From positions 124,001 to 188,000 of the forward strand of contig NZ_JNYZ01000006.1 in NCBI RefSeq assembly GCF_000717335.1: 64,000 bases of DNA, given 5' to 3'. Below are positions 32,293-62,000 of the stretch, piece by piece. How positions within the stretch are numbered: position 1 is the stretch's first letter; the number at the start of each line of letters is the position of its first letter. The translations under genes and the position numbers were made by a program. The DNA comes from Amycolatopsis jejuensis. GTDB taxonomy: Bacteria > Actinomycetota > Actinomycetes > Mycobacteriales > Pseudonocardiaceae. The notes beneath the pieces were generated by a model. That model saw nothing but the letters and a program-made list of their open reading frames with translations. It was not told the DNA's origin and made no database searches.

Positions 32293-32296
32293 GGTG

Positions 32297-32776
32297 AAGC
32301 TGCGCTACTGGCGTGAACGCGCGAAATCCGGGGACGGCGTGCGGGCGTCGGTGGTGCACACGACCTCGGTCGCCGGTTTCGCCGGAAACTACGGACAGGC
32401 CGCGTACAGTGCGGCAAAGGCAGCGGTACTAGGGCTTTCCCGGGTTGTCTCGCTGGAAGGCGCGGCGTACGGCGTCCGGTCGAACGCGATCTCCCCCTCC
32501 GCGTCGACCCGCATGGGCGGGGAACAGGAACTGCCCGGCCTCCGCCCGTCCGCGGTGTCGCCGCTGGTGTCGTGGCTGGCGACCGAGAACTGCCCGGCCG
32601 ACGGCCAGATCTTCCACTGCATGAACGGGCGGCTGGCCGTGGTATCGGCCCCGCGGGCGGTGGAGGTGTTCACTTCGGCGGAGCCGTGGACCCTGGCTCA
32701 GCTGGATACATTGCTGCGTCCGGCGTTACTGAGCCCACCGGCGATCACGGAGTTCCTGGGGGAGGAGTTCGGCTGA
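32297..32776 (+). pseudogene. SDR remnant, N-terminal half missing
   Basis: The reading frame from about 32,297 encodes the C-terminal part of a short-chain dehydrogenase of the hydroxyacyl-CoA dehydrogenase kind: YWRERAKSG, then SVVHTTSVAGFAGN with the catalytic Ser, QAAYSAAKAAVLGL with Tyr-x3-Lys, and SNAISPSASTRM. The Rossmann half with TGxxxGIG is absent; upstream in-frame sequence is the antisense of the thioesterase gene. About 155 residues remain of a usual ~300. The C-terminal tail (LDTLLRPALLSPPAITEFLGEEFG) is intact. It is best read as a 5'-truncated pseudogene. Confidence 0.7.
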
Positions 32777-32952: not shown

Positions 32953-34014
32953 ATGGCGCTGATGAGGGGTCCGGGAGGCGACACTGCCGAGATCACCGGG
33001 AAGCCGGGCGCACGAGGTACCCGGGGGCGCGATCCGGCTGGCCGGGGCATGACCGGCGCAACCGCGGCGCTTTTCCCCGGCATGGCGGCTGCGGAGTTCG
33101 GCGACCTCGGCCGGTTCCTGGTGCTCGATCGTTACGTCCGCCGCTGGCTGCGGGCCGCCGACGACGCGCTGGGTGCGCCGTTGCTGCCCGCCTTCCGCGC
33201 CGAATCCGCCGAATCCGCCGAATCCGCCGACTACGGCCCCTTTTCGCAGGTGGCCTTTCTCGTGAGCTCGCTCGCACTGGCCGAGCGGGCCGAGTCCGAG
33301 TACGGGATGAGGCCGGACGTGTGTGTCGGGCCCAGCCTCGGCCAGCGTGCTGCGGCAGTCTATTCGGGCGCCGTCGGCTTCGCCGAGGCGGTGCGGCTGA
33401 CCGTCGGCTGGGCTCGCTGCGAGGAGGAGTACTTCGCGGCCGAACCGGACGATTTCGTGACCCAGTGCTTCGTCCGGGTTCCGCCGGACGCACTGCTGGA
33501 AGTGCTCGCGGATCTCGACAAACGCGGGGAGTGGGCGGAGGTCTCGGCCGAGCTGGGCAACGGAACCGTGATGGTGTCGATGTGCGAGGCAGTCCTCGGC
33601 GACGTGGTTTCGGCGGTTCGCCGCAGCGGCGGCTACGTCATGCAGGCCATGCGCCCGGCCGTGCATGCCCGGCGCTTCACCGCCCTGCGGGAGAAGGCGG
33701 CTGCCGTCCTCGACGGGTACCCGGTGGCCGATCCGGAGGTGCCGATCGTCGCCGACCAGGACGGCCGGGTCGTCCGCACTGCGGACGGGGTGCGCACCCT
33801 GCTTCTCGACGGCTTCGATCGTCCGGTGGACTGGCCCGCCGCGGTCACCGGGCTGGCCGGGCTGGGGGTCGGAACCGTATACGTCACCGGTCCGGACCAC
33901 TTGTTCCACCGGCTGGATGCGACGAGGTCGCTCGGTGAAATCGTCGCGGTCACCCCGGAAACGGTGAGCCGGCAGGCGGGGTGGCGGCCGGACCGGCGCA
34001 AGGCAGAGGTGTGA
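32953..34014 (+). CDS. Discrete acyltransferase, atypical (MCAT/VinK-like fold)
   Basis: 353 residues; the AT fold starts near residue 35, so ATG 33049 is an alternative start. The nucleophile motif is GPSLGQ (about residue 120) instead of GHSxGE, the N-terminal FPGQG is FPGMA, so the oxyanion Gln is missing, and the Arg that holds the carboxylate of malonyl groups (in RLVAARG-type helices) appears to be Trp (RLTVGWARCE). A catalytic His candidate sits in RPAVHARRF. These changes suggest it moves a monocarboxylic acyl or aminoacyl group rather than malonyl. The gene lies 3 bp before a loading-type NRPS, so transfer of an aminoacyl starter to the PKS is a reasonable inference. A 9-bp unit repeats three times at 33201-33229 (Glu-Ser-Ala). 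Confidence 0.72.
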   Translation: MALMRGPGGDTAEITGKPGARGTRGRDPAGRGMTGATAALFPGMAAAEFGDLGRFLVLDRYVRRWLRAADDALGAPLLPAFRAESAESAESADYGPFSQVAFLVSSLALAERAESEYGMRPDVCVGPSLGQRAAAVYSGAVGFAEAVRLTVGWARCEEEYFAAEPDDFVTQCFVRVPPDALLEVLADLDKRGEWAEVSAELGNGTVMVSMCEAVLGDVVSAVRRSGGYVMQAMRPAVHARRFTALREKAAAVLDGYPVADPEVPIVADQDGRVVRTADGVRTLLLDGFDRPVDWPAAVTGLAGLGVGTVYVTGPDHLFHRLDATRSLGEIVAVTPETVSRQAGWRPDRRKAEV

Positions 34015-34017
34015 CCA

Positions 34018-37000
34018 GTGGGAAAGGTGCGGGAAATGGGCAGAGGACAACGATTCACCCGTCGCGTGGCCCCGCTCGAGCGATGGTTTCTCGGTTTCCC
34101 CCAGACGTTTTCCCCGGTGCAGAACCTGGTGATCGAAGGGACCGGGCAGCTCGGCCCCGACGAGCTCCGGCAGGCGGTCGCGGCAGCGGGCGAGGTCTGT
34201 CCTGGCTCCCGGCTCGTCCGCCGCGGAAGCCGGTGGGCCGACCGGCAAACACCGCCGCCGGTCCGGTCCGCGCGGGGAATGCCGTTGTGCCGTACGGCGC
34301 TCACCGTCCCGCTGCCTCGGGCCGGCGCGTACTGCGAGGTCGTCGTCTTCGAAGATGCGGTGGTCTTTCGCGCCTCGCACGCGGTGATGGACGCCCGCGG
34401 CGTCAAAATCTGGGCTGATCAAGTGTTTCGCGCGCTTCGCGGCGAACAGCTGACCCTCCGCGAGTCCGAACGCACTGTGCTCGACCTCGACGAGCCCCTT
34501 CTCGACACTGCCGTGGCCGGAGGCCGCCGTCTCGCCCGGCCGTCGTTGCTCGCGATTCCGCGGGGGGCCCGGCCCGGGGAATGGCAGTGGGCGCGCCGGA
34601 CCATCGACGGCACCTATCCGGCGGTCGTGGCAAGGCTCGCCACCGAATTCGCGCGCCTGTCCGGCCGGGAGGTCGCACCGGTGAGCATCCCGCTGGACCT
34701 GCGGGGGTTCCACCCGGACCTGGACTCGACGTCGAACCTCGCGGTCACCGTCGCGATCGACATCCCGGCCGGGCAGGGCTGGCCGGAAACCCACCAGCAG
34801 CTGCTTCGGGTGCTCGCCGAACGCCGCGGGACGGTATACGCGCCCGGTCCCGAGATCTTCCGGGCGCCGCTGGCCTACCTGCGCGCGATCGTCCGGGGGC
34901 TGGACCGCCGCGCCCGGGCCGACGAGCGCTTCTCCACCGTCGCGACCGTGAGCAACGTGGGCCGGATCGACGCGGCGAGCTTCGGTACTCCCGGCTTCGA
35001 ACCCACCGCGGTCTACCTGCTGGGCGCACGGGATCCAGCCAGCCCGCCCGGCGTCGGCATCGTCGAATGCGACGGGCGCACCGAAATCACGCTGCCGTGG
35101 TGGCCGGGCGCGCACGACGAGCCCGAACAGCTGCTCGACCGCCTCCACGAGGCGCTTTCCCCGGCTGCGCACCGCAAGCACAGCACCTTGGCGGCCAAGG
35201 CCCCGGAAGCGCCCGGCACGGTACCGGCGGACCGGGGGGTCGTCGAGCAGTTCCGCGGCCAGGTGCGAGCACACCCGGACGCACTCGCGATCAGCGGCCC
35301 TTCCGGCGACCTCACCTACGCCGAGCTCGACCACCGTGCGCGAACCGTCGCGGCGGCGCTGATCGAGCGCGGGGTCGGCAAGGACGACGTCGTCGGGCTT
35401 TTCGCCGATCGCTCGAGCGAGGCGGTCGCCGGGGCATGGGGGGTCCTGATGGCAGGCGCAGCGTATCTGCCGATGGACACGAAACATCCGGATGAGCGCA
35501 TCCGGGGCCTGCTGGCGGACGCGCGTTCGCCGCTGTGCCTGATCGGGAAATCCCACCGGGACCGCGCGTGCCTGCCGGACGGCTGCGCCAGGGTGGTTCT
35601 CGAAGACCTGCCCCGCGCCGGGGAACCGGCGGTGCCGCCGAGGTACCCGGAGCCCTCCGATCTCGCGTACGTGGTCTACACCTCCGGCTCGACCGGCAAG
35701 CCGAAAGGGGTCGAGATCGAGCACCGCAGCCTGAGCAACTATGCGAGCTGGGCCACCCGCGAACACGGCATCGGCCCCGGTACCCGGCTGCCGCTGCTGT
35801 GCTCGCTTTCCTTCGACGTGGCCGAGATTTCTCTGATCCTCCCGTTCCTCACCGGGGGCACCCTGCTTCTGATGCGGGACGAGCTCAGCCATGTCAGCCT
35901 CCAGGAGATGTTCGACGCCGGAGCGACCGCGCTCGCACTGACCCCGTCGCATCTGGACCTGATCACCCGGCTCGGGCTGCGGCCGGGCGGCGTGCGCACG
36001 CTGATGGTCATCGGGGAGCAGTTCACCCGCTCGGTCGCGCTGCGCGCGCAGGAGATGTTCGGCCCGGAATGCCGGATTTTCAACCTGTACGGACCGGCCG
36101 AGGCGACGATCGGGGTCAGCCATCACGTTTTCGACGCCGCTGCCGATGCCGGCGCGAGCGTCCCGATCGGGCTTCCGCTCGACGGCGTCACGATGTACGT
36201 GCTCGACGCCGAACGCCGGTTCGCCGCGCCGGGGGAGACCGGCGAGCTCTACCTCGGCGGGCGGCAGCTGGCGCGCGGCTACCGGGGCCGCACCGACCTC
36301 ACCCGCGAGCGGTTCGTCCATCTCGCCGACGGCACCCGGGCCTACCGCACCGGCGACATCGTGCGCCGGCTGCCGTCCGGTGAGCTGGAGTTCTGCGGAC
36401 GGGCCGACGACCAGGTCAAGGTGCACGGCCACCGGATCGAGCCGGCCGAGATCGCGCACACGCTGGAAACGCATCCTTCGGTGGCGGCCGCGGTGGTCGT
36501 CCCGCGAGCGCGGCCGGGCGGGGACAAGGCGCTGTACGGCTACGTCGTCGCGGCGCCCGGCACGTCCGCAGGGCCGTCCGGGGAACTGGAAACACATCTG
36601 CGGCGCACCCTGCCGGAATACCTGATTCCCGCCGCCATCGTCGAGGTCGCGGAGATCCCGCGGACGATCAACGGCAAGGTCGAGGTCGCGGCTTTGCCGG
36701 ACCCGGCGGGGGGTGCACCGCGCGAAACCGGTGGCGTGGTGCCGCTCGACGAGACCGAGTCCGCGGTTTCGCGCATCTGGGCCGAGGTGCTGCAGGTCGA
36801 GTCCGGCCGTGTCACCCGCGACGCCGACTTCCACGAACTCGGCGGGGATTCGCTGAGCCTGATCGCGATGGTCGCCGAAGTGACTCGCGCCGTGGTCGGG
36901 CCTGCCGGAGAAGCGGCGCTGACGGTCCAGCTGCCGGACATCATCCGGCGGCCGACGGTGGCGCACGTCGCCGAGCTGGCCCTGATGGCCCTGACGGTTC

Positions 37001-37023
37001 AGGTGGCCCAGGTACCCGGGTGA
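34018..37023 (+). CDS. NRPS: condensation/acyltransferase-like domain - adenylation - thiolation
   Basis: 1001 residues (ATG 34036 behind GGAAAGG is an equally good start). Residues ~10-390 resemble a condensation or PapA-type acyltransferase domain with SHAVMDARG as the H-x3-D motif. Residues ~410-900 are an adenylation domain: A3 YTSGSTGKPKGV, A4 SFDVAE with the Asp that binds an alpha-amino group, A5 NLYGPAEATI, A7 YRTGDIV, A8 VKVHGHRIEPAEIAHTL and A10 Lys in NGKVEV. Residues ~925-1000 are a carrier domain with FHELGGDSLSL. No thioesterase or second module follows. Presence of the A4 Asp suggests an amino acid substrate; I do not assign which. It probably supplies an aminoacyl starter or side chain with the adjacent acyltransferase. 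Confidence 0.86.
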   Translation: MGKVREMGRGQRFTRRVAPLERWFLGFPQTFSPVQNLVIEGTGQLGPDELRQAVAAAGEVCPGSRLVRRGSRWADRQTPPPVRSARGMPLCRTALTVPLPRAGAYCEVVVFEDAVVFRASHAVMDARGVKIWADQVFRALRGEQLTLRESERTVLDLDEPLLDTAVAGGRRLARPSLLAIPRGARPGEWQWARRTIDGTYPAVVARLATEFARLSGREVAPVSIPLDLRGFHPDLDSTSNLAVTVAIDIPAGQGWPETHQQLLRVLAERRGTVYAPGPEIFRAPLAYLRAIVRGLDRRARADERFSTVATVSNVGRIDAASFGTPGFEPTAVYLLGARDPASPPGVGIVECDGRTEITLPWWPGAHDEPEQLLDRLHEALSPAAHRKHSTLAAKAPEAPGTVPADRGVVEQFRGQVRAHPDALAISGPSGDLTYAELDHRARTVAAALIERGVGKDDVVGLFADRSSEAVAGAWGVLMAGAAYLPMDTKHPDERIRGLLADARSPLCLIGKSHRDRACLPDGCARVVLEDLPRAGEPAVPPRYPEPSDLAYVVYTSGSTGKPKGVEIEHRSLSNYASWATREHGIGPGTRLPLLCSLSFDVAEISLILPFLTGGTLLLMRDELSHVSLQEMFDAGATALALTPSHLDLITRLGLRPGGVRTLMVIGEQFTRSVALRAQEMFGPECRIFNLYGPAEATIGVSHHVFDAAADAGASVPIGLPLDGVTMYVLDAERRFAAPGETGELYLGGRQLARGYRGRTDLTRERFVHLADGTRAYRTGDIVRRLPSGELEFCGRADDQVKVHGHRIEPAEIAHTLETHPSVAAAVVVPRARPGGDKALYGYVVAAPGTSAGPSGELETHLRRTLPEYLIPAAIVEVAEIPRTINGKVEVAALPDPAGGAPRETGGVVPLDETESAVSRIWAEVLQVESGRVTRDADFHELGGDSLSLIAMVAEVTRAVVGPAGEAALTVQLPDIIRRPTVAHVAELALMALTVQVAQVPG

Positions 37024-46071: not shown

Positions 46072-46097
46072 GTGCGGCTCGAATCGCTCCATCGAAT

Positions 46098-46114
46098 CTC
46101 TCATGAAATGAGAG
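46098..46114 (+). repeat. Hairpin overlapping the AGAGG ribosome-site region
   Basis: CTCTCAT-GAA-ATGAGAG, seven perfect pairs with a three-base loop. The AGAGG at 46111-46115, the best ribosome site before ATG 46129, lies in the 3' arm, so folding could lower translation. Could equally be an operator. Confidence 0.35.
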
Positions 46115-46128
46115 GAACGGTCCTCCCC

Positions 46129-46815
46129 ATGAATTCAACCGCAACGGCCCCGCGCTGTGCGGTGCCGGTTCCCACCGTGCACACCGAGCACCGCGACAGA
46201 TATCGTTCGCTTTTCGACCAGTCCGGGATGTGCATGGCGAACCTGGACCTCGGGCTCCGGGTCACCGATGCCAATCGGTTTTTCTCGCGGCAGTTCGGCC
46301 GCAGTGCCCAGGAACTGCGTGGTCGCGGATTCTGCGAATTCCTGCACCCGAGTGTGCACGGAAAAGTGCGGCACCAGCTGACCCGGCTCAAGGAAGGCGG
46401 CCATCCGCGCTTTGCCGAGCAGGTCGTCGCGGTCGGCGCCGAACAGGCGGTGTTCGCCGGTGAGCTGACCGGCGTCGCCGTACGAGGTGACGCCGGCCGG
46501 GTCAACGGGCTACTGGTGCTGGTCCGGCCGGAGGAGACCAGCGGCGTCCTGCAGCTGGCCAGCGGCAAGCAGGCACTGCTGAGTCCCATCGACGCGCGGA
46601 TCCTCGAGGGCGTCGCGACGGGCGAGTCCACCGTGCAGATGGCGGCGAAGCTCTTCCTGTCCCGGGGCGGGATCGAGTACCACGTCACGACCCTGCTGCG
46701 GAAGCTGAAGGTGACCAACCGGCCCGCGCTCGTTTCGAAGAGCTACTCGCTCGGGATCCTGAGCCTGGGGCAGTGGCCGCCGCGAGTCCGGCCGGAGTAC
46801 ATCCGGGCCTCGTGA
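46129..46815 (+). CDS. PAS-LuxR pathway regulator (PimM/NysRIV/AmphRIV-like)
   Basis: 228 residues from ATG 46129. Residues ~20-130 form a PAS sensor domain (YRSLFDQSGMCMANLDLGLR, then VTDANRFFSRQFGRSAQEL and GFCEFLHPSVHGKV). Residues ~150-215 are a LuxR HTH: LSPIDARILEGVATGESTVQ, AAKLFLSRGGIEYHVTTLLR. This PAS plus LuxR layout of about 200-230 residues is the hallmark of the PimM family that directly activates polyene macrolide genes. In-frame starts at 46072 and 46108 are possible but fall in the leader repeats. Eight candidate PimM-type boxes in this window support a cluster-wide role. Confidence 0.88.
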   Translation: MNSTATAPRCAVPVPTVHTEHRDRYRSLFDQSGMCMANLDLGLRVTDANRFFSRQFGRSAQELRGRGFCEFLHPSVHGKVRHQLTRLKEGGHPRFAEQVVAVGAEQAVFAGELTGVAVRGDAGRVNGLLVLVRPEETSGVLQLASGKQALLSPIDARILEGVATGESTVQMAAKLFLSRGGIEYHVTTLLRKLKVTNRPALVSKSYSLGILSLGQWPPRVRPEYIRAS

Positions 46816-46952: not shown

Positions 46953-47714
46953 TCACGCCGACGCGGCGGAGTCGCCGAGACGGGCGAGTTCGGCGGCGAT
47001 TTCGCGGTTCACCGCGGCAGCGTGGCCGGTCAGGTAGAAGTGCCCGCCGGGAAAGACCCGCATCCGGAACGTGGCGGTGGTGTGCTCGCCCCAGCGGCCG
47101 GCCTCCGCGACGGTCGCCTTCGGGTCGGCGTCGCCGACCAGGGCGACGATCGGGCAGTCCAGCCGGGTACCCGGGGTGCCTTCGTAGGTTTCGGCGGCAC
47201 GGTAGTCGTTGCGGATGGCAGGCAGCGCCAGGCGGAGCACTTCTTCGTTGTCCAGCAACGCCGATTCGGTTCCGCCGAGCCGGTTGATCTCCCGGAGCAG
47301 CCCGGCATCGTCGAGCCGGTGGACGTACTCGGTGCGGGACGCGGCGGGCGCCCGGCGTCCGGACGCCACCAATGCCGACACGGCGCCGGTGCGCACCGCG
47401 GTCTCGAAGGCGATCGACGCGCCCATGCTGTGTCCGAAGTAGACGGTCGGCAGCTCCGGCTCGCCGTCGAGCACTTCGCTGATCCGGTCGGCGTAGCTTT
47501 CCACTGTGGACAGGCACGGCTCGCGGTAGCGGTCCTGCCTGCCCGGGTACTGCAGCACGACGACGTCGGTGCCGGGCGGCTGCGCCGCGGCGACCGGCTG
47601 GTAGAAGCCGGCCGACCCGCCGGCGTGCGGGAAGCAGACCAGCCGGCGGGTGGCGGCCGGGGACGGCCGGAACCGGCGGAGCCAGAGATCGGCATTCGTC
47701 GCGGGGAGAGGCAT
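46953..47714 (-). CDS. Type II thioesterase (editing)
   Basis: 253 residues, alpha/beta hydrolase. N-terminal RLVCFPHAGGSAGFYQPVA with the oxyanion region, nucleophile in YFGHSMGASIAFE (about residue 95), Asp in VALVGDADPK and His in FPGGHFYLTGH. Type II thioesterases remove stalled acyl groups from PKS and NRPS carrier domains. The ATG at 47714 has GGAACGT-type weak ribosome site; a longer in-frame start would cross the divergent promoter region. It is convergent to the PAS-LuxR gene with a 137-bp gap in which only a weak 6-bp inverted repeat (46827-46864) is visible. Confidence 0.9.
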   Translation of the reverse strand: MPLPATNADLWLRRFRPSPAATRRLVCFPHAGGSAGFYQPVAAAQPPGTDVVVLQYPGRQDRYREPCLSTVESYADRISEVLDGEPELPTVYFGHSMGASIAFETAVRTGAVSALVASGRRAPAASRTEYVHRLDDAGLLREINRLGGTESALLDNEEVLRLALPAIRNDYRAAETYEGTPGTRLDCPIVALVGDADPKATVAEAGRWGEHTTATFRMRVFPGGHFYLTGHAAAVNREIAAELARLGDSAASA

Positions 47715-47803
47715 GGGACGTTCCTTCGTACCGGGGACGCGGGGTTTCGGCGGGGCCGGACGGAATGCACGGGCCGCCGGTGCCGCAGTACACACCCGCC
47801 GGG

Positions 47804-47819
47804 ACGAGGAAATCACCAG
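47804..47819 (+). promoter_or_regulatory. PAS-LuxR (PimM-type) box before the thioesterase gene
   Basis: ACGAGGAAATCACCAG matches 12 of 16 positions of the PimM consensus and shares AGGAAATCACC with the minus strand of the box at 49159. It lies 90 bp before the thioesterase ATG in the divergent gap 47715-47958. Confidence 0.4.
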
Positions 47820-47850
47820 AGCAGCCGAAAATGCGGCAGTTCCCGGTGAT

Positions 47851-47866
47851 GTGGTGCTTTCCTTAC
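47851..47866 (-). promoter_or_regulatory. PAS-LuxR (PimM-type) box before P450 copy 1
   Basis: Minus strand GTAAGGAAAGCACCAC, 11 of 16 matches to the PimM consensus, the weakest in the set and one base poorer than the copy before P450 copy 2. TTGACA follows after 16 bp (47883). Confidence 0.35.
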
Positions 47867-47958
47867 CCTTTCGCCGGGAGCTTTGACAGCCGTCCGGCGG
47901 CACTGGGAAGTTCGGTCCTGAGGTATGGAACGTCGTCGAGCGCAACGGAGTCCGACCC

Positions 47959-49139
47959 ATGTCCAGCCCTGCCGACCACCGGCCCAGTCTCGCCGCCCTG
48001 TCCACGCCGGTGCTCCGGCCCGCCCCGGATTGGCGGCGGCTGCAGGAATCCCGGGCGGTCGGTCCCGGTCCGGACCTACACCGGTGACGACGCGTGGCTG
48101 GTCACCCGGTACGCCGAGATCAAAGACCTGCTGATGGGCACCCGGCTCGGGCGGGCGCATCCGGACCCGGAGAACGCCGCCCGGTTCATCGACTCCCCGA
48201 TCCTCGGTGAGGCTGCCGGCCAGACCGGCTTCGCCCATGGGCTCGCCGGCCACCGCCGCCTGCGGACGGTGCTCACGCCCTACTTTTCGCACAGCCGGAT
48301 GGCTGCGCTCGAACCTCGCGTGGCGGAGATCGTCGACGAAGCGGTGACGGCTCTGGCGTCCGGCGGCCCGTCGGCCGATCTGCTGGCGGTGTGCGCGAAC
48401 CCCGCTGTCGATGGCGGTCCGGTGCGAGCTGATCGGCATTCCCGCCGAAGAACGCGACGAGCTGGGGCCGCTGCTCGCTGCCGCGAGCACGCTCGGCGGT
48501 GACACCGACCGCCTGGGTCCGCTGGCGGCCCTGGTCGGGCGGCTCGTCGCGCTCCGGCGGGAGGAGCCGCGTGACGATCTGATCTCCGGTGCCTGCGCTG
48601 CCGGGCTGACCGATGCCGAAGTCGCCGACGCCATCGCCGGGGTGATCTTCGGCGGTCGCGGCGTGGTGAACCATCTCGTGTTCGGTGTCGAGGGCTGTGC
48701 AGCGACGACGAGCTCGACCGCGGCAGTCACGGCCGATCCCGGGCTGATGCCTGCCGCGGTCGAGGAGATGGTGCGCACCGCCAGCGCGGGTGGCGTGATC
48801 ATGCCGCACTACGCGCGGGAAGATCTCGACATCGACGGAGTCCGCATTCAAGCCGGTGATCTGGTGCTGCTCGACCTGGCGCTGGCGAACACCGACCGGA
48901 GAGCCTTCGCCGAGCCCGACCGGATCGACCTCGGCCGCGTGCCGAACCCGCACCTGACCTACGCGCTCGGCAGGTGGCACTGTGTCGGCGCGCCGCTTGC
49001 GCGGATGGAGCTGCGGCTGGCGTTTTCCGCACTGCTGCAGCGTTTTCCCGGGCTGCGTCTCGTGCTTCCGGTGTCCGAGCTCAGTGTCCCGGACGATCAG
49101 CTGGCGGGTGGCCTGTCCGCACTGCTCGTCACCTGGTGA
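47959..49139 (+). pseudogene. Cytochrome P450 copy 1, frameshifted
   Basis: A reading frame opens at ATG 47959 (SSPADHRPSLAALSTPVLRP) but an extra G at about 48061 shifts it and leads to early termination. The next frame carries VRTYTGDDAWLVTRYAEIKD to about 48400, where an extra C shifts it again; the last frame runs to 49139 with RCELIGIPAEERDE, EEMVRTAS (ExxR) and the heme segment WHCVGAPLARMEL. A further -1/+1 pair at about 48692 and 48717 scrambles some nine residues, and one codon is missing in the I-helix. Copy 2 has none of these. Either a decaying duplicate or several sequencing errors; the promoter-box decay favours the former. Confidence 0.8.
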
Positions 49140-49174: not shown

Positions 49175-49266
49175 CCTTTTTCCCGTGTCTTTGACAGCTG
49201 TTCACGGCACTGGGATGTTCGATCATGAAACACCCGACGTCGTCGATCCGCACGGGAGCCCGCCCT

Positions 49267-50442
49267 ATGCCCGCCGAAGACCGGCCCAGTCTCGCCGCCC
49301 TGTCCACGCCGGTGCTCCGGCCCGCGCCGGATTGGCGGCGGCTGCAGGAATCCCGGGCGGTCGTCCCGGTCCGGACCTACGCCGGTGACGACGCGTGGCT
49401 GGTCACGCGGTACGCCGAGATCAAAGACCTGCTGGCGGACCCTCGTCTCGGGCGGGCGCATCCGGACCCGGAGAACGCGCCCAGGTTCATCGACAGCCCG
49501 ATGTTCGATCCGGCGGCAGGCCGGTCCGGCTACGCGGACGAGATGGCCGACCACCGCAGGCTCCGGACGGTGCTCGCGCCGCACTTCTCGCGCAAGCGGA
49601 TGGCCGCGCTCGAACCTCGCGTGGCGGCGTTCGCCGACGAGGCGGCGGGCACGTTGGCGTCCTGGGGCCCGCCCGCCGATCTGCAGTCGGTGTTCGCGAA
49701 CCCGCTGTCGATCGCGGTCCTGTGCGAGCTGATCGGCATTCCCGCCGGAGAACGCGGGGAGCTCGGATCCCGGCTCGCCGCGGCGAGCGAGCTCGGCAGC
49801 GGCACCGACGGGCAGGGCTCGCTGGCGGCTCTGCTCGGGCGGCTCGTCGTGCAACGGCGGCGGGAGCCGAGCGACGATCTGATTTCCGGCGCCTGCGCTG
49901 CCGGGCTGGCCGACGAGGAAGTCGCCGAAGTCGTTGCCGGCGTGATCTTCGCGGGGCACGGCAGTGTGGTGAGCCACCTCGGCTTCGGCGTCGCGCGGCT
50001 GTGCACTGACGACGAACTCCGCGCGGCAGTCACGGCCGATCCCGGGCTGATCCCCGATGCGGTCGAGGAACTGCTCCGCACCGCCAGCGCGGGTGGCGGG
50101 GCCATGCCGCATTACGCGCGCGAGGACATCGAGGTCGGCGGAGTCCGTATCGAGGAGGGCGACCTGGTGCTGCTCGATTTCGCGCTCGCGAACTTCGACC
50201 CGCGGGCCTTCGAAGAGCCCGACCGGGTCGACGTCACCCGCACGCCGAACCCGCACCTGGCCTTCGCGCACGGGATCTGGCATTGCGTCGGCGCGCCCCT
50301 CGCCAGGATGGAGCTGCGGCTGGCCTTTTCCGCGCTGCTCCGGCGTTTTCCGGACCTGCGCCTCGCGCTGCCGGTCGCCGAGCTGAGCACCCCGGACGAT
50401 CAGCTCGCCGGCGGCCTGACCGCCCTGCTCGTCACGTGGTGA
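49267..50442 (+). CDS. Cytochrome P450 (copy 2, intact)
   Basis: 391 residues, soluble bacterial class. I-helix VIFAGHGSVVSH, where the usual Asp/Glu-Thr pair is Gly-Ser; K-helix ELLRTAS (ExxR); heme loop FAHGIWHCVGAPLARMEL with the axial Cys. ATG 49267 lies 93 bp after its box, exactly as ATG 47959 does in copy 1, which supports this start over GTG/ATG 49225. In polyene clusters P450s hydroxylate the macrolactone or oxidise a methyl branch to a carboxyl group. The neighbouring amidotransferase would fit a carboxyl-forming role, but that is inference. It ends 13 bp from the convergent exporter genes. Confidence 0.9.
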   Translation: MPAEDRPSLAALSTPVLRPAPDWRRLQESRAVVPVRTYAGDDAWLVTRYAEIKDLLADPRLGRAHPDPENAPRFIDSPMFDPAAGRSGYADEMADHRRLRTVLAPHFSRKRMAALEPRVAAFADEAAGTLASWGPPADLQSVFANPLSIAVLCELIGIPAGERGELGSRLAAASELGSGTDGQGSLAALLGRLVVQRRREPSDDLISGACAAGLADEEVAEVVAGVIFAGHGSVVSHLGFGVARLCTDDELRAAVTADPGLIPDAVEELLRTASAGGGAMPHYAREDIEVGGVRIEEGDLVLLDFALANFDPRAFEEPDRVDVTRTPNPHLAFAHGIWHCVGAPLARMELRLAFSALLRRFPDLRLALPVAELSTPDDQLAGGLTALLVTW

Positions 50443-52248: not shown

Positions 52249-52391
52249 GCGGTGCCTTTCGTCGTGCGATCCGGCCGGGCAGCCGCAAGCATGCGCGATC
52301 CGCCGCCGGGGTGCGAGCCCGCCATAGCAGGGAAAAACCCGGCGGACCGCCAGTAGGTGCCGGGCGGCGGCCCCCATGGGAGCCGGGAAGA

Positions 52392-52407
52392 CTAGGAGTT
52401 TCCCCGT
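52392..52407 (+). promoter_or_regulatory. PAS-LuxR (PimM-type) box in the exporter/amidotransferase gap
   Basis: CTAGGAGTTTCCCCGT, 12 of 16 matches to the PimM consensus, 65 bp before the amidotransferase ATG and 143 bp before the DrrA-like start. It could serve the amidotransferase operon and possibly the exporter. Confidence 0.45.
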
Positions 52408-52472
52408 TCGCCTCCTGCGATCGTCCGTCGTGGTGCGTACTTCCGCGCCTGCACGCGAAAGGAGTGGGCCGG

Positions 52473-54320
52473 ATGTGCGGTATCACCGGATGGGTGTCCT
52501 ACCAGCGGGACCTGCGGACCGACCGGACGCCAGTGGAGGCGATGACCCGGACGATGGCCTGCCGTGGCCCCGATGCCGAAGGGATCTGGACCGGCAGGCA
52601 CATCGCGCTCGGGCACCGGAGGCTGGCGGTGATCGACCTCAGCGGCGGCACGCAGCCGATGACCGCGCACACCCCGGACGGACGCGTGGTGATCACCTAC
52701 AGCGGGGAGGCGTACAACTTCACCGAGCTGCGGGACCGGCTGCGCGGGCGCGGCCACCGGTTCGAGACCTCGAGCGACACCGAGGTGGTGCTGCGTGCCT
52801 ATCTCGAATGGGGCGAGGCCGTGGCCGAGCGGCTCGACGGAATGTACGCCTTCGCGATCTGGGATGCCCGTGACGAGAAGCTGGTCATGGTCCGCGACCG
52901 GCTGGGGATCAAGCCGTTCTTCTTCCACCCGACCGCCGACGGCGTGCTCTTCGCGTCGGAACCGAAGGCGATCCTGGCCCACCCGCTGCAGAAGCGGGTG
53001 ATCACGGCCGACGGTCTCCGGGAGATGCTGAACGGCTGGAACACTCCCGGCGCCGAGATCTGGTCCGGGATGCGGGAGGTCCGTCCGGGCAGCCTGGTCG
53101 TGGTCGACCGATCCGGGGTGCGGGAACGCACCTACTGGACGCTGGAGCCACGCGAGCACATCGACGATCTCGAGTCGACCGTCGCGGTCACCCGCGAGTT
53201 GTTCGGTGACATCGTGAAACACCAGCTGGTCGCGGACGTGCCGCAGTGCGTGCTGCTGTCCGGCGGGCTGGACTCCAGTTCCCTCACCGTCGTGGCGGCC
53301 CGGCAGCTCGCCGCCCAAGGCGAACGGGTGCACACGTACTCGGTGGATTTCGCCGGCCGCAACGAATCCTTCCGGCCCGATTCGATGCGCGCCACCCCCG
53401 ACTCGCCGTTCGTGCACGACGTGGCCGATCACGTCGGCGCGATCCACCGGGACATCGTGCTGCCGTTCACCTCCATGGCCGATCGGGAACATCGCAGGGC
53501 GGTCATCGCGGCGCGTGATTTCCCGGTCGGCATGGCGGATGTGGACGTCCCGCTGTACCTGTTGTTCAAGGCGATCCGGGAGCATTCCACGGTCGCGCTG
53601 TCCGGCGAAGGGGCGGACGAGGTCTTCGCCGGATATCCGTGGTTCCACGTTCCCGAGCTCGCGCACGCCGACCTCTACCCGTGGATGGCCCCGGTGCTGG
53701 CGGAGTGGGACGACGCGAACGCGACGGGGATGATGAACCCGGGCCTGGTCGCCGCGCTCGATCTGGAGACCTATTTCAAGGACTCGTACCGCGACGCGGC
53801 CGCCGCGGTCGAGTTCCTGCCCGGGGAAGACGAGCACGAACGCCGCATGCGGATCATGTGCCATCTCCACCTCACCCGGTTCCTGCCCATGCTGCTGGAC
53901 CGCAAGGACCGGATCAGCATGGCGGTCGGCCTCGAAGTGCGCGTGCCGTATTGCGATCACCGTCTGGTGGAATACGTCTACAACACCCCGTGGTCGATGA
54001 AGACGTTCGACGGCAGGGAAAAGAGCCTGCTTCGCGCGGCGGCGGGCGACCTCTTGCCCGCTTCGGTCCGCAACCGCGTCAAGAGCCCCTTTCCGTCCAC
54101 TCAGGACGATCGGTATGCCGGCGAGCTTCAGCAGCAGGCGAGGGAGCTGACCGAGGACGCCGATCACCCCGTCTTCCGGTTCGCCGACCGCCGCTGGGTC
54201 GACGAGGTCGTGCGGATGGATCCGGCGGACGTCCCGGACAGCACCCGCGAGGCCCTCGACCGCACGGTCGACATCGCGACCTGGCTCGAGCTCCATCAAC
54301 CGGAAATCGAGGTCGGCTGA
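52473..54320 (+). CDS. Asparagine-synthase-like glutamine amidotransferase (polyene carboxamide synthase candidate)
   Basis: 615 residues. Begins MCGITGWVSY with the catalytic Cys2 of class II glutaminases, then RGPDAEGIW and the glutamine-site region HRRLAVIDLSGG. The synthetase domain has the ATP-pyrophosphatase loop LSGGLDSSSLT (residue ~262) and LSGEGADEVFAGYPW, with KDRISMAVGLEVRVPY. Such enzymes adenylate a carboxylate and amidate it with ammonia from glutamine. In a macrolide cluster this matches the PcsA-type carboxamide synthase described for rimocidin-type polyenes better than primary asparagine synthesis. AAAGGAGTGG precedes the ATG, 6-14 bases off. Confidence 0.88.
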   Translation: MCGITGWVSYQRDLRTDRTPVEAMTRTMACRGPDAEGIWTGRHIALGHRRLAVIDLSGGTQPMTAHTPDGRVVITYSGEAYNFTELRDRLRGRGHRFETSSDTEVVLRAYLEWGEAVAERLDGMYAFAIWDARDEKLVMVRDRLGIKPFFFHPTADGVLFASEPKAILAHPLQKRVITADGLREMLNGWNTPGAEIWSGMREVRPGSLVVVDRSGVRERTYWTLEPREHIDDLESTVAVTRELFGDIVKHQLVADVPQCVLLSGGLDSSSLTVVAARQLAAQGERVHTYSVDFAGRNESFRPDSMRATPDSPFVHDVADHVGAIHRDIVLPFTSMADREHRRAVIAARDFPVGMADVDVPLYLLFKAIREHSTVALSGEGADEVFAGYPWFHVPELAHADLYPWMAPVLAEWDDANATGMMNPGLVAALDLETYFKDSYRDAAAAVEFLPGEDEHERRMRIMCHLHLTRFLPMLLDRKDRISMAVGLEVRVPYCDHRLVEYVYNTPWSMKTFDGREKSLLRAAAGDLLPASVRNRVKSPFPSTQDDRYAGELQQQARELTEDADHPVFRFADRRWVDEVVRMDPADVPDSTREALDRTVDIATWLELHQPEIEVG

Positions 54321-54796: not shown

Positions 54797-55831
54797 ATGT
54801 CCAGGCGTGCATTGATCACCGGGATCACCGGGCAGGACGGTTCGTATCTGGCCGAGCACCTGCTTTCCCTGGGCTACCAGGTGTGGGGACTGGTCCGCGG
54901 GCAGGCGAATCCGCGGAAGTCGCGGGTCAGCATGCTCGCCGCCGATCTCGATTTCGTCAACGGCGACCTCCTCGACCAGGGCAGCCTGGTCGCGGCCGTC
55001 GACAAGGTCCAGCCGGACGAGGTCTACAACCTCGGGGCGATTTCCTTCGTGCCGATGTCCTGGGAGCAGGCGGAACTGGTCACCGAGGTCAACGGCATGG
55101 GCGTGCTGCGCATGCTCGAAGCGATCCGGATGGTGAGCGGGCTGTCGATCACGTCCCGTCCCCCGTCCGGTGGCCAGATCCGGTTCTACCAGGCGTCCTC
55201 GTCGGAGATGTTCGGCAAGGTGATGGAGACGCCGCAGTGCGAGACGACGACGTTCCATCCGCGCAGCCCGTATGGGGTGGCGAAAGCGTACGGCCACTAC
55301 ATCACGCGCAACTATCGCGAATCCTTCGGGATGTACGGGGTGTCCGGGATGCTGTTCAACCACGAATCCCCGCGGCGCGGTGCCGAGTTCGTCACGAGGA
55401 AGATTTCGCTCGCCGTGGCGCGGATCAAGCTGGGGCTGCAGGAAAAACTGAGCCTCGGCAACCTCGATGCGGTCCGCGACTGGGGGTTCGCCGGCGACTA
55501 CGTCCGTGCCATGCACCTGATGCTGCAGCAGGACGTCGCCGACGACTACGTGGTCGGGACCGGCCGGATGAACTCGGTGCGGGATGCGGTGCGGATCGCC
55601 TTCGGCTGCGCCGGCCTCGACTGGGAGGACCACGTCGTGATCGATCCGAAGCTGGTCCGGCCCGCCGAGGTCGAGACGTTGTGCGCGGATTCCGGGCTGG
55701 CGCGCAAGGTGCTGGGCTGGGAACCCACGGTGGCCTTCGACGAGCTGATGCGCATGATGGTGGAGTCCGATCTGCACCAGGTGTCGCGCGAACGCGGGAC
55801 GGACGGCCTTGCGCTGAGCGGAGCTTGGTAA
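54797..55831 (+). CDS. gmd: GDP-mannose 4,6-dehydratase
   Basis: 344 residues of the extended SDR family. N-terminal cofactor motif ITGITGQDGSYLAEHLLSLG, catalytic Tyr-x3-Lys in SPYGVAKAYGHYI, the conserved FNHESPRRGAEFVTRKI block and the substrate region NLDAVRDWGFAGDYVRAM are all diagnostic for GDP-D-mannose 4,6-dehydratase. It makes GDP-4-keto-6-deoxymannose. In polyene clusters this is the first committed step to mycosamine; the aminotransferase and glycosyltransferase would be expected to the right of the window. It lies directly before the PKS, the position of nysDIII beside nysI in the nystatin cluster. Confidence 0.92.
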   Translation: MSRRALITGITGQDGSYLAEHLLSLGYQVWGLVRGQANPRKSRVSMLAADLDFVNGDLLDQGSLVAAVDKVQPDEVYNLGAISFVPMSWEQAELVTEVNGMGVLRMLEAIRMVSGLSITSRPPSGGQIRFYQASSSEMFGKVMETPQCETTTFHPRSPYGVAKAYGHYITRNYRESFGMYGVSGMLFNHESPRRGAEFVTRKISLAVARIKLGLQEKLSLGNLDAVRDWGFAGDYVRAMHLMLQQDVADDYVVGTGRMNSVRDAVRIAFGCAGLDWEDHVVIDPKLVRPAEVETLCADSGLARKVLGWEPTVAFDELMRMMVESDLHQVSRERGTDGLALSGAW

Positions 55832-56004: not shown

Positions 56005-59000
56005 ATGGACAACGAACAGAAGCTCAGGGACTATCTCAAGCGGGCGAGCGCCGATCTGCAGCGTTCCCGCCGCCGGGTCGGTGAGCTGGAAGAGGCCGCC
56101 GTCGAGCCGATCGCGCTGGTCGGCATGAGCTGCCGCTTTCCAGGGAACGTCGCCGGTCCCGACGACCTCTGGCGGATGGTCGCCACCGGTGCGCACGGGA
56201 TCTCGGGCTTCCCGGCCGACCGGGGCTGGGACCTCGGCGGGGACCCCGACGGGCCGTCCGCCGGCGGTTTTCTCCGCGGTGCCACCGAATTCGACGCGGA
56301 CTTCTTCGGGATCTCCCCGCGGGAGGCGCTCGCGATGGATCCCCAGCAGCGGGTGCTGCTCGAAACCGCATGGGAGGCCTTCGAACGGGCCGGGCTCGAT
56401 CCTGCCGTGGTACGGGGGACCCGGACCGGGGTCTTCGTCGGCGCGATGGCCCAGGACTACCGGGTCGGTCCGGGGGAGGGTGCCGAGGGTTTCCAGCTGA
56501 CCGGCAGCGCGAACAGCGTGCTGTCCGGACGGCTCTCCTACACGTTCGGCCTGGTCGGTCCCGCGGTGACGGTGGACACCGCGTGTTCGTCGTCGCTCGT
56601 CGCGATGCACCTGGCCGCCCAGTCACTGCGCGCGGGTGAATGCTCGCTGGCGCTGGCCGGCGGGGTTACGGTGATGTCCAGCCCGGCCACGTTCACCGAG
56701 ATGAACCGGCAAGGCGGCCTCGCCGCCGACGGCCGGTGCCGCTCGTTCTCCGACGACGCCGGGGGCACCGGCTGGTCGGAAGGCGCCGGGCTCCTTGTCC
56801 TGGAACGGCTTTCCGACGCCCGCCGCAACGGGCACGAGGTGCTGGCGGTCATCCGTGGCTCCGCGGTCAACCAGGACGGCGCGTCGAACGGGCTGACCGC
56901 GCCGAACGGCCCGTCCCAGCAGCGGGTCATCGAGCAGGCGCTGATCAACGCCCGGCTCACCGCGGCCGAGGTCGACGTCGTCGACGCGCACGGGACCGGG
57001 ACCACCTTGGGCGATCCGGTGGAGGCGCAGGCGCTGCTGGCGACCTACGGGCGAGGGCGGGACGCGGCCCGGCCCCTGCTGCTCGGCTCGGTGAAGTCGA
57101 ACCTGAGCCACACCCAGGCCGCCGCCGGGGTCGCCGGGGTGATCAAGATGGTGCTGGCGATGCGGCACGGCATCGTCCCCCGCACGCTCGGTGCCGAAAC
57201 CCCGTCGTCCCATGTGGACTGGACGGCGGGGGCGGTCGAGCTGGTGACCGAGCAGGTCCCGTGGCCGGAGACCGGCGCCCCCCGCCGGGCCGGGATCTCG
57301 TCGTTCGGCATCAGCGGGACCAACGCACACCTCATCGTCGAGCAGGCGCCGCCCGCGGAGTCTCCGGCGGAGCCCGGCCGCACCGGCCCGGACGTGGTAC
57401 CCCTGCCGGTTTCCGGCAAGACCGGAGACGCGCTGCGGGCGCAGGCCGCGGCTCTGCTGTCCTTTGTGGACGAACAGTGGGACGTCGAGCCGGGCGACCT
57501 GGCGTATTCGCTGGCGACGTCGCGAGCGAGTTTCGAGCACCGCGCCGTGCTGCTCGCAGGCGATCGGAAAACGGCCGTCGCCGGGCTGACGGCACTGGCC
57601 GGGGGCAGCTCCGCGCCGGGCCTGCTGCTGGGGACCTGCCAGGGCCGGCCGAAACTGGCCTTCCTGTTCACCGGCCAAGGCGCGCAACGGCTGGGCATGG
57701 GCCGGGAGCTGTACGCCCGGTTCCCGGAATTCGCCGCCGAACTGGACACCGTCGCCGCCGCCTTCGACGCCCACCTCGACCGTCCACTGCAGGAGGTCAT
57801 GTGGGGCGACGAACCGGAAACGCTGGAGCGGACCGAATACGCCCAGCCTGCGTTGTTCGCCGTCGAGGTCGCCCTGTTCCGCTTGATGGAAGCGATCGGG
57901 GTCCAGCCGGACTACCTCCTCGGCCACTCCATCGGGGAACTCGCGGCGGCGCACGTGTCCGGGGTCTTCGGTCTCGAGGACGCGGCCGCGCTGGTGGCCG
58001 CCCGGGGCCGGCTGATGCAGGCGGTGCCGGGCACTGGATCGATGGTCTCGCTGGAGGCGTCGGAAGCCGAGGTCGCGCCGCTGATCGAGGGCAGGGCGGA
58101 CCTGGTTTCGATCGCCGCGGTCAACGGGCCCGCGGCGGTGGTCGTATCCGGTGATCGCGAAGCGGTCGCCGAGATCACCGCGCACTTCGCCGCACTGGAC
58201 CGCAAGACCCGCGAACTCCGGGTCTCGCACGCGTTCCACTCGCCTCATCTCGAACCGATGCTCGGCGATTACCGCGCTGTGGTGGCCGGTCTTTCCCCGC
58301 AGCCGCCGCTCATCCCGATCGTGTCCACGGTGACCGGCGACCCGATGACGGCCGAGCAGGCGAGGTCCGCGGACTACTGGGCCGATCAGGTCCGCCGGGC
58401 CGTCCGGTTCGCCGACGGCGTCGGCTGGCTGCGCGACCACGGTGCCGGAGTATTCCTCGAACTCGGCCCGGACGGCGTGCTGTCCGCCATGGTCGAGGAC
58501 TGCTGGAACGACCCAGCAGACCCGGAAGCCGCCGCGTTCCCGGTGTTGCGGGCCCGTCGCCCGGAGACGGCGGCGATCGCGTCCGCTGTGGGCAACCTGC
58601 ACGTACATGGCGTCCGCGTGCGATGGGATGCCTTCTTCGCCGGTACCGGCGTCCGCCGGGTGGACCTGCCGACGTACGCCTTTCAGCGCCGCCGGTTCTG
58701 GCCGAAAGCCATGGGTGCCGGGGCAGGCGAGCTGCGTGCGGCGGGCGTGGGCGCGGCGCACCATCCGCTGCTCACCGCGACCACCGCACTGGCGGACTCG
58801 GACTCGTTCCTGCTCACCGGCCGCCTTTCCGGCCACGCGCATCCGTGGCTCGCCGAGCACGTCGTCGACGGTGCCGTCCTCCTGCCGGGGACGGCGTTCC
58901 TGGAACTGGCGATCCGGGCCGGGGACGAGGTGGGCTGCGATCGGGTCGAAGAGCTCACGCTCGCCGCTCCGCTCGTCCTGCCCGCGCACGGCGGCGTCCA

Positions 59001-62000
59001 GGTCCAGGTCTGGGTCGGTGCGCCCGACGACGCGGGCAGCCGGGCGCTTTCCGTCTATTCCCGGCCCGATGCCGACGACGCCGAGCTTCCGTGGGTCCGG
59101 CATGCCACCGGCGTGCTGGTGGCCGAGGGCACCGATGCGGTGCCCGATGCGGACTTCGCCACCTGGCCGCCTGCCGGTGCCGAGGTGCTCGACCTCGACG
59201 GGCACTACGACCGGCTCGCCGCTGGTGGTTTCGAATACGGTCCGGCGTTCCGTGGCCTCACCTCCGCCTGGCGACGCGGCGACGAGATCTTCGCCGAGCT
59301 GGCGCTGCCCGAAGGCACCGGCGCCGAAGAGTTCGGCATCCACCCGGCGCTGCTCGATTCCGCTTTGCACGCCGCATCTTTCGCGGGCCTCGACGGTGGC
59401 CTTCCGTTTTCCTGGGAGGGCGTCTCGCTCCGGGCGACCGGTGCCGCGGAGGTCCGGGTCAAGATCACCAAGCTGGCCGGGGACACCATTTCCGTTGCGG
59501 TGGCCGGCCCTGCCGGGGAACCCATCGCGACGATCGACACCCTCGTGCTGCGCGGGACGGACCGGCAGGGGCGGCTCTCGCCGGTCGAGCGGGACTCGTT
59601 GTTCTCCGTGGTCTGGAAAAAGGCCCGGACCACCGGGGCGACGGCGCCGGTGTCCGTCGGCGTGCTGGGTGACGATGTCTTCGGGTTGGCCGGCGCGGTC
59701 CGGGAAGCGGGCCGCACCGCCGAAACGCAGCCCGGCCCGGTCTGGTCCGGCAACCCGGTTCCGGAAGTCGTCCTGGTTCCGGTGCAGTGCACCGGAACCG
59801 ACGTCGCCGCCGAGGCACACCGCTTGGCCGCCGAGGCACTGCATCGCGCGCAGGCGTGGCTGGCCGACGACCGGTTCGCGGCCTCACGGCTGATCTTCGT
59901 GACTCGCGGAGCCGACTGCAGCGACCCGGCCGCGGCGGCGGTCCGGGGTCTGCTCAGGGGCGCCCAGACCGAGCATCCGGATCGATTCGCGCTGCTCGAC
60001 CTCGACCCGGAGACGCCTGCGGCGGCCGGCCTCGGCGCGGCGCTGGCCGCCGGACCCGAGACGATGATTCGCGACGGCGTCGTGCTGCAGCCGAGGTTGA
60101 ACCGCGTTTTCCCGGCAGCCGCAACGGAAGTCCCGTGGAGTGCGGACGGGACCGTCCTCCTCACCGGCGCCGCCGACGGCCTCGCGGGTGTGTTCGCCCG
60201 CCATCTCGTGACCACCCACGGCGTACGCCGCCTGCTGCTGCTGAGCCGGCGTGGTGCCGCGGCCGATGGGGCCGACGGCCTCGTGACCGAACTGGCCGAG
60301 CATGGTGCCGAGGTCACGATCGCCGCCTGCGACGTCGCCGATCGGGCCGAGCTCGCCGCGGTGCTGGCCTCGATTCCGGACGCGCATCCGCTGACCGGGG
60401 TGGTCCACACAGCCGGGATGCTCGACGACGGGGTGCTCACCGCGCTGACGCCGGAGCGGCTGGACACTGTCCTCACCCCGAAGGCCGACGCCGTCTGGAA
60501 CTTGCACGAGCTGACCCGGGCCCTCCCGCTGACCGCGTTCGTGGTCTTCTCCTCGGTCGCCGGGACGTTCGGGGCGGCCGGACAGGCGAACTACGCGGCC
60601 GCCAATGCCTTCCTCGACGCACTCGTGGCGCGCCGCCGCAGCGAAGGACTTCCGGGAGTTTCCCTTGCCTGGGGCCCGTGGGCGCGATCCGGTGGCATGA
60701 CCGCCGCGCTGACGGACGCCGAGCTGGAGCGCCTGGCGCGGGCGGGCACTCCGCCGCTAGCCGTGGCGGAGGGCGTCGCGCTGTTCGATGCCGCGCTCTC
60801 TGTGCCCGAATCGCTGGTACTGCCGGTCCGGCTGGACCTGGGCGCGCTGCGGGCGTCCGGCGACGTTCCGCATCTGCTGCGCGGGCTCGTCAAGGTTTCC
60901 GGCCGCCGTTCGGTGGTCTCGGGTGCCGGCCCGGCGTCCGCGCTGGTCCAGCGGCTTTCCCGGCTGAGCGCCGAGGACCGTGCCGACGCGGTGCTGGAAC
61001 TGGTGCGGACTGAGGTCGCGGCGACTCTCGGGCACGCCGGTGCCGCGGCCATCGAACCCGGCCGTGCGTTCACCGACCTCGGCTTCGACTCGCTGACGGC
61101 CGTCGAATTGCGCAACCGGCTCAGCCGGGTCACCGGGCTTCGCAGCTCGGCCACGGTGATCTTCGACCACCCGACCGCACGTGCGCTGGCCGCGCACCTG
61201 CTCGGCGAGCTGATGGAACCGGAAGCTGCCTCCGGCACTCCGGCCGGAGACCCGCCGCGCCTGTCCGCGGCCGACGATCCGATCGTGATCGTGGGCATGA
61301 GCTGCCGGTACCCCGGCGGGGTCGCTTCGCCGGAAGACCTGTGGCGGCTGGTCGGCGAGGGCACCGACGCCATCTCGGGCTTCCCGGTGAATCGCGGCTG
61401 GGATCTGGGCGCACTCTACGATCCGGACCCCGACCACCCGGGCACGACGTATACGCGCGCCGGCGGTTTCCTGCACGACGCCGGCGAGTTCGACGCCGCC
61501 TTTTTCGGGATGAGCCCGCGGGAGGCGACGGCGACGGACTCACAGCAACGGCTGTTGCTGGAGGCATCGTGGGAGGCGATCGAGCACACCGGGATCGACC
61601 CGATGTCGTTGCGTGGCAGCCGGACCGGGGTGTTCGCCGGGGTGATGTACAACGACTACGGCGCGGTACTGGCCGGTGGTGAGTTCGAAGGTTTCCAGGG
61701 GAGCGGGACGTCGCCGAGTGTGGCTTCGGGCCGGGTTGCGTACACGCTGGGGCTGGAAGGACCGGCCGTCACCGTCGACACCGCGTGCTCTTCGTCGCTC
61801 GTCGCCATGCACTGGGCGATGCAGGCACTGCGCGCGGGGGAGTGTTCCCTTGCGCTCGCGGGCGGGGTGACGGTGATGTCCACCCCGGCTTCGCTCATCG
61901 AATTCGCCCGCCAGCGCGGGCTTTCCGCGGACGGCCGCTGCAAGTCCTTTTCGGACGCCGCGGACGGGGTCGGCTGGGCCGAGGGCGTCGGTATCCTCGT

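Follow-up and report, generated by a model that had tools for sequence, protein, structure and literature searches.

Why should a discrete acyltransferase lie directly beside a single nonribosomal peptide synthetase (NRPS) module at the edge of a polyene gene cluster? This arrangement occurs in a stretch of 64,000 nucleotides of Amycolatopsis jejuensis (positions 124001–188000 of contig NZ_JNYZ01000006.1, here contig C6, in a 10.1-Mb genome), hereafter the window. The initial annotation proposed that the NRPS supplies an aminoacyl starter and that the acyltransferase (AT) hands it to the polyketide synthase (PKS), as in vicenistatin-type pathways. We find that the AT very probably is the in-trans starter loader of the cluster PKS, and that the NRPS probably is not its aminoacyl donor. 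The account we prefer, to which we give about an even chance, is that AT and NRPS are two enzymes of one mycosamine-polyene cluster that are adjacent here by chance, one for starter loading and the other for tailoring by aminoacylation. The two genes, with the domains of the second, are as follows.

33049..34014 (+): VinK-type discrete AT, putative starter loader; alternative start 32953; GPSLGQ, Trp at the malonate-Arg position, His in MRPAVHA
34018..37023 (+): NRPS-like protein with condensation-like, adenylation, and thiolation domains (C-like/A/T); probable start ATG 34036
34018..35202 (+): divergent condensation-superfamily domain; SHxxxD motif, with His121 and Asp125 invariant in a 37-row alignment
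35251..36678 (+): adenylation (A) domain; 10-residue pocket read as DVIAMILIGK
36763..36891 (+): thiolation (T, PP-binding) domain; GGDSL serine

The discrete acyltransferase and the loading module

In a Pfam scan, the AT open reading frame (ORF; 32953–34014, +) matches VinK_C (2.1e-13) and Acyl_transf_1 (2.2e-9). The PDB chains that match it (5czc, 5czd, 8h6s, and 7f2r; E 2.6e-78 to 1.2e-77) bear the entry label "Malonyl-CoA-[acyl-carrier-protein] transacylase" and are, we take it, VinK itself. By its small domain and its full-length VinK homology, the protein is a VinK-type discrete AT, as the proposed likeness to vicenistatin had implied. The unusual motifs pointed out earlier are also real: in a hidden Markov model (HMM) alignment, all 19 PKS ATs of the cluster show GHSxGE and the malonate-binding Arg, and the window AT has GPSLGQ and Trp at these places. 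The Gln of FPGQG is indeed lost, but this is a trait of the whole family, since FPGM stands in 19 of 19 rows of an alignment of VinK-like ATs; the Gln loss and the altered serine motif are thus family traits. Trp at the selectivity position is found in 4 of these 19 rows (the window, P0122, P0123, and P0149), the rest having Leu, Val, Thr, or Ile. Translation starts at 33049 or 32953: relatives begin at the Met of 33049, and the database copy has 321 aa, but a Shine-Dalgarno-like AGAGG precedes 32953.

The need for such an enzyme is evident from the assembly line, which begins in the window and extends rightward to contig position 285461.

56005..64000 (+): start of a six-module PKS, which runs to contig position 207973 and opens with a docking domain and a ketosynthase (KS), not a loading module

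HMMs grown from the domains of this PKS detect 19 KS and 19 AT domains in the cluster PKS genes, and a PF00698 scan of the genome gives 21 matches, i.e. the same 19 PKS ATs, the window AT, and one on contig C37. One PKS (ATG at contig position 232237) starts with a lone acyl carrier protein (ACP) that is followed directly by KS-AT-dehydratase-ketoreductase-ACP, and the last PKS protein ends in a thioesterase (TE)-like region, as read from its sequence. No AT in a loading position of the PKS line was found with the domain HMMs, in the PF00698 genome scan, or at the start of the lone-ACP PKS, so the normal AT-bearing loading module that would have spoken against the initial annotation is absent from the region right of the window. 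A lone N-terminal loading ACP without AT requires a starter AT in trans. The acceptor expected in a VinK-type system is present, and transfer from the AT to this ACP is our prediction. Genes were called by GC content at third codon positions, by which some starts are missed or misplaced; a 600-aa head on the first PKS ORF was discarded as spurious, being the antisense of the monooxygenase gene described below.

A survey of VinK-like ATs retrieved 163 relatives, of which 80 loci were kept (the window's own genome and A. benzoatilytica are not among them), with flanks of up to 10 kb and often shorter. An amino-acid monooxygenase lies in the flanks of 20 loci and an acyl-CoA ligase in those of 33, with either or both in 35. 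A further 39 have an A-domain match in their place, without a C-like domain, and would be of the macrolactam type, while 6 have neither. In the window cluster, the AT is probably what loads the polyketide assembly line with a starter carrying an amino or guanidino group.

The source of the starter

Genes able to make such a starter adjoin the loading ACP, outside the window.

C6 230386–232041 (−): amine-oxidase-family protein, L-amino-acid monooxygenase homologue; just upstream of the loading ACP
C6 228925–230337: AMP-binding (acyl-CoA) ligase; beside the monooxygenase homologue

This gene order and the lone ACP are read directly from the contig. The closest solved structure to the monooxygenase homologue is 3we0, an L-amino acid oxidase/monooxygenase (E 5.9e-207) that presumably acts on several L-amino acids. 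The same block upstream of the loading ACP holds a UGT-type glycosyltransferase, a DegT aminotransferase, and a P450, and the starter and sugar genes are 84–89% identical to their A. saalfeldensis counterparts (PKSs 76–83%). For the A. saalfeldensis cluster a guanidinobutyrate-primed pentaene has been predicted, with A. benzoatilytica and A. jejuensis named as related, and production was undetectable in cultures of A. saalfeldensis and A. benzoatilytica (Caffrey 2022, PMC8944477); the available parts of the main text of that article mention neither the discrete AT nor the C-like/A/T protein of the cluster. In azalomycin biosynthesis, a dedicated AT loads the starter on the loading ACP (PMC5082578).

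The window cluster has the amino-acid monooxygenase and the CoA ligase of a guanidinobutyrate pathway. By analogy with azalomycin, the starter probably comes from a guanidinobutyryl (or omega-aminoacyl) route and not from the NRPS; the earlier idea of an amino-acid-primed polyene therefore survives in kind, and only the NRPS as its aminoacyl source is not supported. From azalomycin we also infer the chemistry. The monooxygenase would turn arginine, or less likely lysine or ornithine, into an amide, which an unlinked amidase would hydrolyze; the cluster ligase would activate the resulting acid, and the AT would pass the acyl group, 4-guanidinobutyryl (or omega-aminoacyl), to the first PKS at its lone loading ACP. 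A macrolactone would then be completed by nineteen modules and the terminal TE.

Homologues of the monooxygenase are common, with a match at E 1e-100 in 72 of the 80 Amycolatopsis genomes that we surveyed (the window's own included). A second one in the A. jejuensis genome (contig C18, 133686–136111), 62% identical, adjoins a CN-hydrolase amidase, and in Lentzea albida a weak amidase match adjoins the monooxygenase.

The AT itself appears to have been exchanged during the history of the cluster. In A. saalfeldensis it lies between ligase and monooxygenase, in the contiguous order DegT-glycosyltransferase-ligase-AT-monooxygenase-PKS. The monooxygenase tree groups the window with A. benzoatilytica, A. 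saalfeldensis, and a fourth Amycolatopsis genome, G493 (support 99.8), and this grouping is rejected by the AT data (p-AU 0.0001, from quick trees). Because of this rejection, and because the ATs of the window, A. benzoatilytica, and A. silviterrae cluster with P0124, P0125, and P0127 in the AT tree, the AT of the window lineage seems to be of foreign origin, having taken the place of the resident enzyme while lying elsewhere in the cluster.

The C-like/A/T protein as a proposed separate enzyme

Among the four sister clusters (window, A. benzoatilytica, A. saalfeldensis, and G493), the AT and the C-like/A/T gene adjoin only in the window, and in the other three they lie 10–61 kb apart: about 10 kb and on opposite strands in A. 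benzoatilytica, and about 60 kb in A. saalfeldensis and G493. Even in the window, where the gene pair is indeed adjacent, a gap of 21 bp is likelier than the 3 bp first noted, given the NRPS start at ATG 34036, which fits the 995 aa of the database copy. None of the 80 VinK-like loci has a C-like domain in its flanks, and the Lentzea albida genome has no match to this domain at E 1e-10 despite its set of AT, ligase, and monooxygenase. Conversely, 12 of the 80 Amycolatopsis genomes match the C-like/A/T protein at E 1e-20, 7 of them with at least 47% identity, and three NRPS-bearing genomes (G445, G481, and G489) have no VinK-like AT at E 1e-25. In G445 and G481 the NRPS is inside a mycosamine PKS cluster, with a type II TE and a GDP-mannose dehydratase nearby, and one PKS protein of the G445 cluster starts with AT-ACP; in G489 it adjoins an aminotransferase homologue. 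Its presence without a VinK-like AT in G445 and G481, together with its moving position, argues that the NRPS is not tied to the starter AT. In G445 and G481 (L189, L198), a second stand-alone C-like protein with an intact His/Asp motif directly follows the C-like/A/T gene.

The architecture first assigned to this protein stands, with A and T domains and no release domain by Pfam, and a C-like domain by profile. The latter, i.e. the N-terminal 395 residues, has no Pfam family match at E 0.5 and no solved-structure match by profile at E 5, and it aligns near full length with NRPS condensation domains in a profile comparison (probability 97.2; the profile was built from 13 of the 19 condensation matches of the same genome). 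It is no canonical condensation domain, as it has SHxxxD for HHxxxDG and is recognized by profile alignment and not by a Pfam Condensation match. An affiliation with WS/DGAT proteins was rejected: 2 of the 37 alignment rows match that family weakly in Pfam, and a profile comparison with three WS/DGAT proteins of the same genome, a weak control, gives a probability of 6.4 over 44 columns. Some distant relatives have the pocket DLTKxGExGK, which we take to be of the Asn/Asp type, and the window pocket looks like a more hydrophobic derivative of it by residue comparison (in which the S. anandii row, a 180-aa fragment, was ignored).

Of the two products that the initial annotation had offered, the NRPS is better read as pointing to the second, an aminoacylated polyene. 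The C-like/A/T protein would charge its own T domain with an amino acid, and the divergent condensation domain would hand it to an amine of the polyketide, that of mycosamine or that of the starter, giving an aminoacylated polyene. We put such an aminoacyl transferase at slightly below even probability, with a protective role second. A broader claim, which we advance more tentatively, is that in nature polyene macrolides and aminopolyols are turned into aminoacyl amides (or esters), for instance on the mycosamine amine, by a branch of stand-alone C-like/A/T enzymes whose condensation-superfamily domain has gone unrecognized. The literature searched, which was mostly without subscription papers, contains no description of polyenes that are aminoacylated or of NRPS enzymes within polyene clusters.

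The distribution in Streptomyces bears on the second possibility, in which the NRPS aminoacylates the amine of an omega-aminoacyl starter in the manner of VinM, the AT loads the protected starter, and the residue is later removed or kept. We searched for the C-like domain in the 42 genomes behind 42 of the 80 AT loci and found a relative in 9. All 7 genomes that form one AT subclade have an NRPS relative, against 0 of the 8 examined in its sister subclade (a count that leaves out L039). In S. coacervatus, S. anandii, S. barringtoniae, and S. naganishii, the C-like/A/T gene occurs with a type II TE and a LAL-type regulator near a PKS that opens with a lone ACP and breaks off where the contig ends; in S. 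coacervatus the AT-linked PKS genes likewise reach the end of a contig, at a point that would suit the missing first part, and we take the two contigs to join from their orientation and missing parts only. This association revives a possible link to an amine starter through protective aminoacylation. An unprotected omega-aminoacyl starter would close to a lactam, aminoacyl protection with dipeptidyl transfer has its precedent in vicenistatin (PMC11284099), and the NRPS occurs in all four Amycolatopsis genomes with an orthologous monooxygenase (at least 83% identity), each of which has the VinK-like AT as well. However, a guanidino starter would not need protecting; G445, G481, and G489 have the NRPS with neither a VinK-like AT nor a monooxygenase above 63% identity; and near the NRPS copies examined in the other three Streptomycetaceae (two Streptantibioticus and Streptomyces sp. 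RPT161) we saw no lone-ACP PKS and at most weak pieces resembling KS or ACP. Starter protection is thus possible but, in our estimate, unlikely. In Streptantibioticus ferralitis (G401; L118, L123–L125) there are four C-like domain matches, two of which were viewed in context. Overall, the C-like/A/T protein apparently recurs in amine-bearing polyene and polyol clusters, those of Streptomyces included.

It is somewhat less likely still that the NRPS serves some small pathway unrelated to the polyene, which came to rest at the cluster edge. Members of the family are widespread and frequently stand alone, and relatives occur in contexts where no PKS was seen, but four Amycolatopsis genomes have the gene in one and the same polyene cluster, though at shifting positions, and in G445 and G481 it again lies beside the type II TE and GDP-mannose dehydratase genes. 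The scheme first proposed, in which an amino acid charged to the T domain of the NRPS is carried over to the loading ACP by the AT, is improbable: the adjacency in the window, the joint presence of both genes in those four genomes, and the ability of VinK to shift a dipeptidyl group between carrier proteins (PMC11284099) speak for it, but a monooxygenase and ligase able to make the starter adjoin the loading ACP, and AT and NRPS each occur without the other in Lentzea albida, the 80 loci, and the three genomes above, including G445 with its AT-ACP start. A terminal NRPS module making a tetramate was set aside, as the last PKS ends TE-like and the C-like domain is non-canonical.

Several observations weigh against the account we prefer, of separate enzymes for starter loading and aminoacylation. 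The DVIAMILIGK code gives no clear amino acid. A scan of the genome by family places no ureohydrolase and no CN_hydrolase amidase in the cluster (the latter has 20 matches genome-wide; the scan covered this amidase family), and the sequence does not discriminate among Arg, Lys, and Orn as starter source. In favor of the NRPS part of the account, a DegT aminotransferase homologue is present in 7 of 7 genomes with the NRPS at 47% identity or more, compared with 26 of 80 overall (Fisher P = 0.0002), though that line was drawn after the matches were seen; with all 12 genomes at E 1e-20 the count is 8 of 12 (P = 0.015), and because the genomes are related both P values overstate the association. 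The NRPS is optional, being absent at the 47% level from 19 of the 26 genomes with the aminotransferase. In G489, no PKS domain was found on the 115-kb contig that carries the NRPS. Finally, AT and NRPS diverge in parallel from A. saalfeldensis (56% and 60% identity, vs 84–89% for starter and sugar genes), which with their adjacency could mean functional coupling; the type II TE (54%) and the ABC ATPase (61%) diverge likewise.

Cluster setting and comparison with known systems

The AT and C-like/A/T genes open, on the left, a cluster for a mycosamine polyene, in agreement with the polyene-type regulators and mycosamine gene first recognized nearby. Modular PKS, GDP-mannose dehydratase, DegT aminotransferase, glycosyltransferase, and P450 genes are all present, as in glycosylated polyene macrolide clusters. 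The remaining genes of the window between the NRPS and the PKS are as follows.

37380–40253, 40423–42915, 42919–45678 (+): three AAA/LuxR (LAL-type) regulators
46072..46815 (+): PAS-LuxR regulator
46953..48005 (−): type II TE; a homologue adjoins the C-like/A/T gene in several relatives
49225..50442 (+): cytochrome P450
51301..52377 (−): ABC transporter ATPase
52311..54320 (+): asparagine-synthase-like amidotransferase, possible polyene carboxamide synthase; true start probably further in
54797..55831 (+): GDP-mannose 4,6-dehydratase family protein (mycosamine, by analogy)

The asparagine-synthase-like protein is 82–83% identical in G493 and A. benzoatilytica, and no homologue was found in a 200-kb A. 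saalfeldensis stretch, which starts inside a PKS gene. It resembles in kind PcsA, a polyene carboxamide synthase (PMC4540446), and by this analogy might convert the exocyclic carboxyl to an amide. To the left of the AT, a thioesterase-fold protein (31912–32292, −) overlaps a truncated ORF resembling short-chain dehydrogenases/reductases (SDR-like; 32156–32776, +), and one of the two may be a remnant. Right of the PKS genes (C6 285643–294124) lie a RamC/LanC-like class III lanthipeptide synthetase, a peptidase, and two ABC transporters.

The products of these clusters are predicted only, from their genes. The starter route has already been predicted for the sister clusters, and starter loading being known chemistry, the AT would explain the priming of a silent polyene family; the new part is the C-like/A/T enzyme. 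Charge at the amine affects the activity and toxicity of polyenes, and a polyene-aminoacylating enzyme, if this is what the protein is, would be new as a tailoring step and useful in practice as a tool. On positive charge, a related point is made in PMC8944477.

Compared with VinK of vicenistatin and its macrolactam homologues, the window AT shares the family, the VinK_C domain, the FPGM of the family alignment, a residue other than Arg at the selectivity position, and a lone ACP as acceptor. It differs in its partners, as the starter genes encode a monooxygenase and a ligase and the AT's neighbor is the C-like/A/T protein, with no adenylating enzymes of the VinN/VinM type beside it; the donor here would probably be a CoA thioester, and the predicted product is a macrolactone polyene. 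The guanidinobutyryl systems of azalomycin/kanchanamycin, ECO-02301, and clethramycin have in common with the window cluster the amino-acid monooxygenase, the ligase, the dedicated AT, and the lone loading ACP, whereas the window cluster is that of a glycosylated polyene with mycosamine genes, lacks the CN-hydrolase amidase, and carries its AT at the far end. The A. saalfeldensis cluster (PMC8944477) is its ortholog, with the PKS identities given above. As for the C-like/A/T protein, it shares with canonical NRPS C-A-T modules the A and T domains and the His and Asp of the condensation motif, and differs from them in a C-like domain below Pfam detection with Ser for the first His of HHxxxDG, in standing alone, and in having no release domain.

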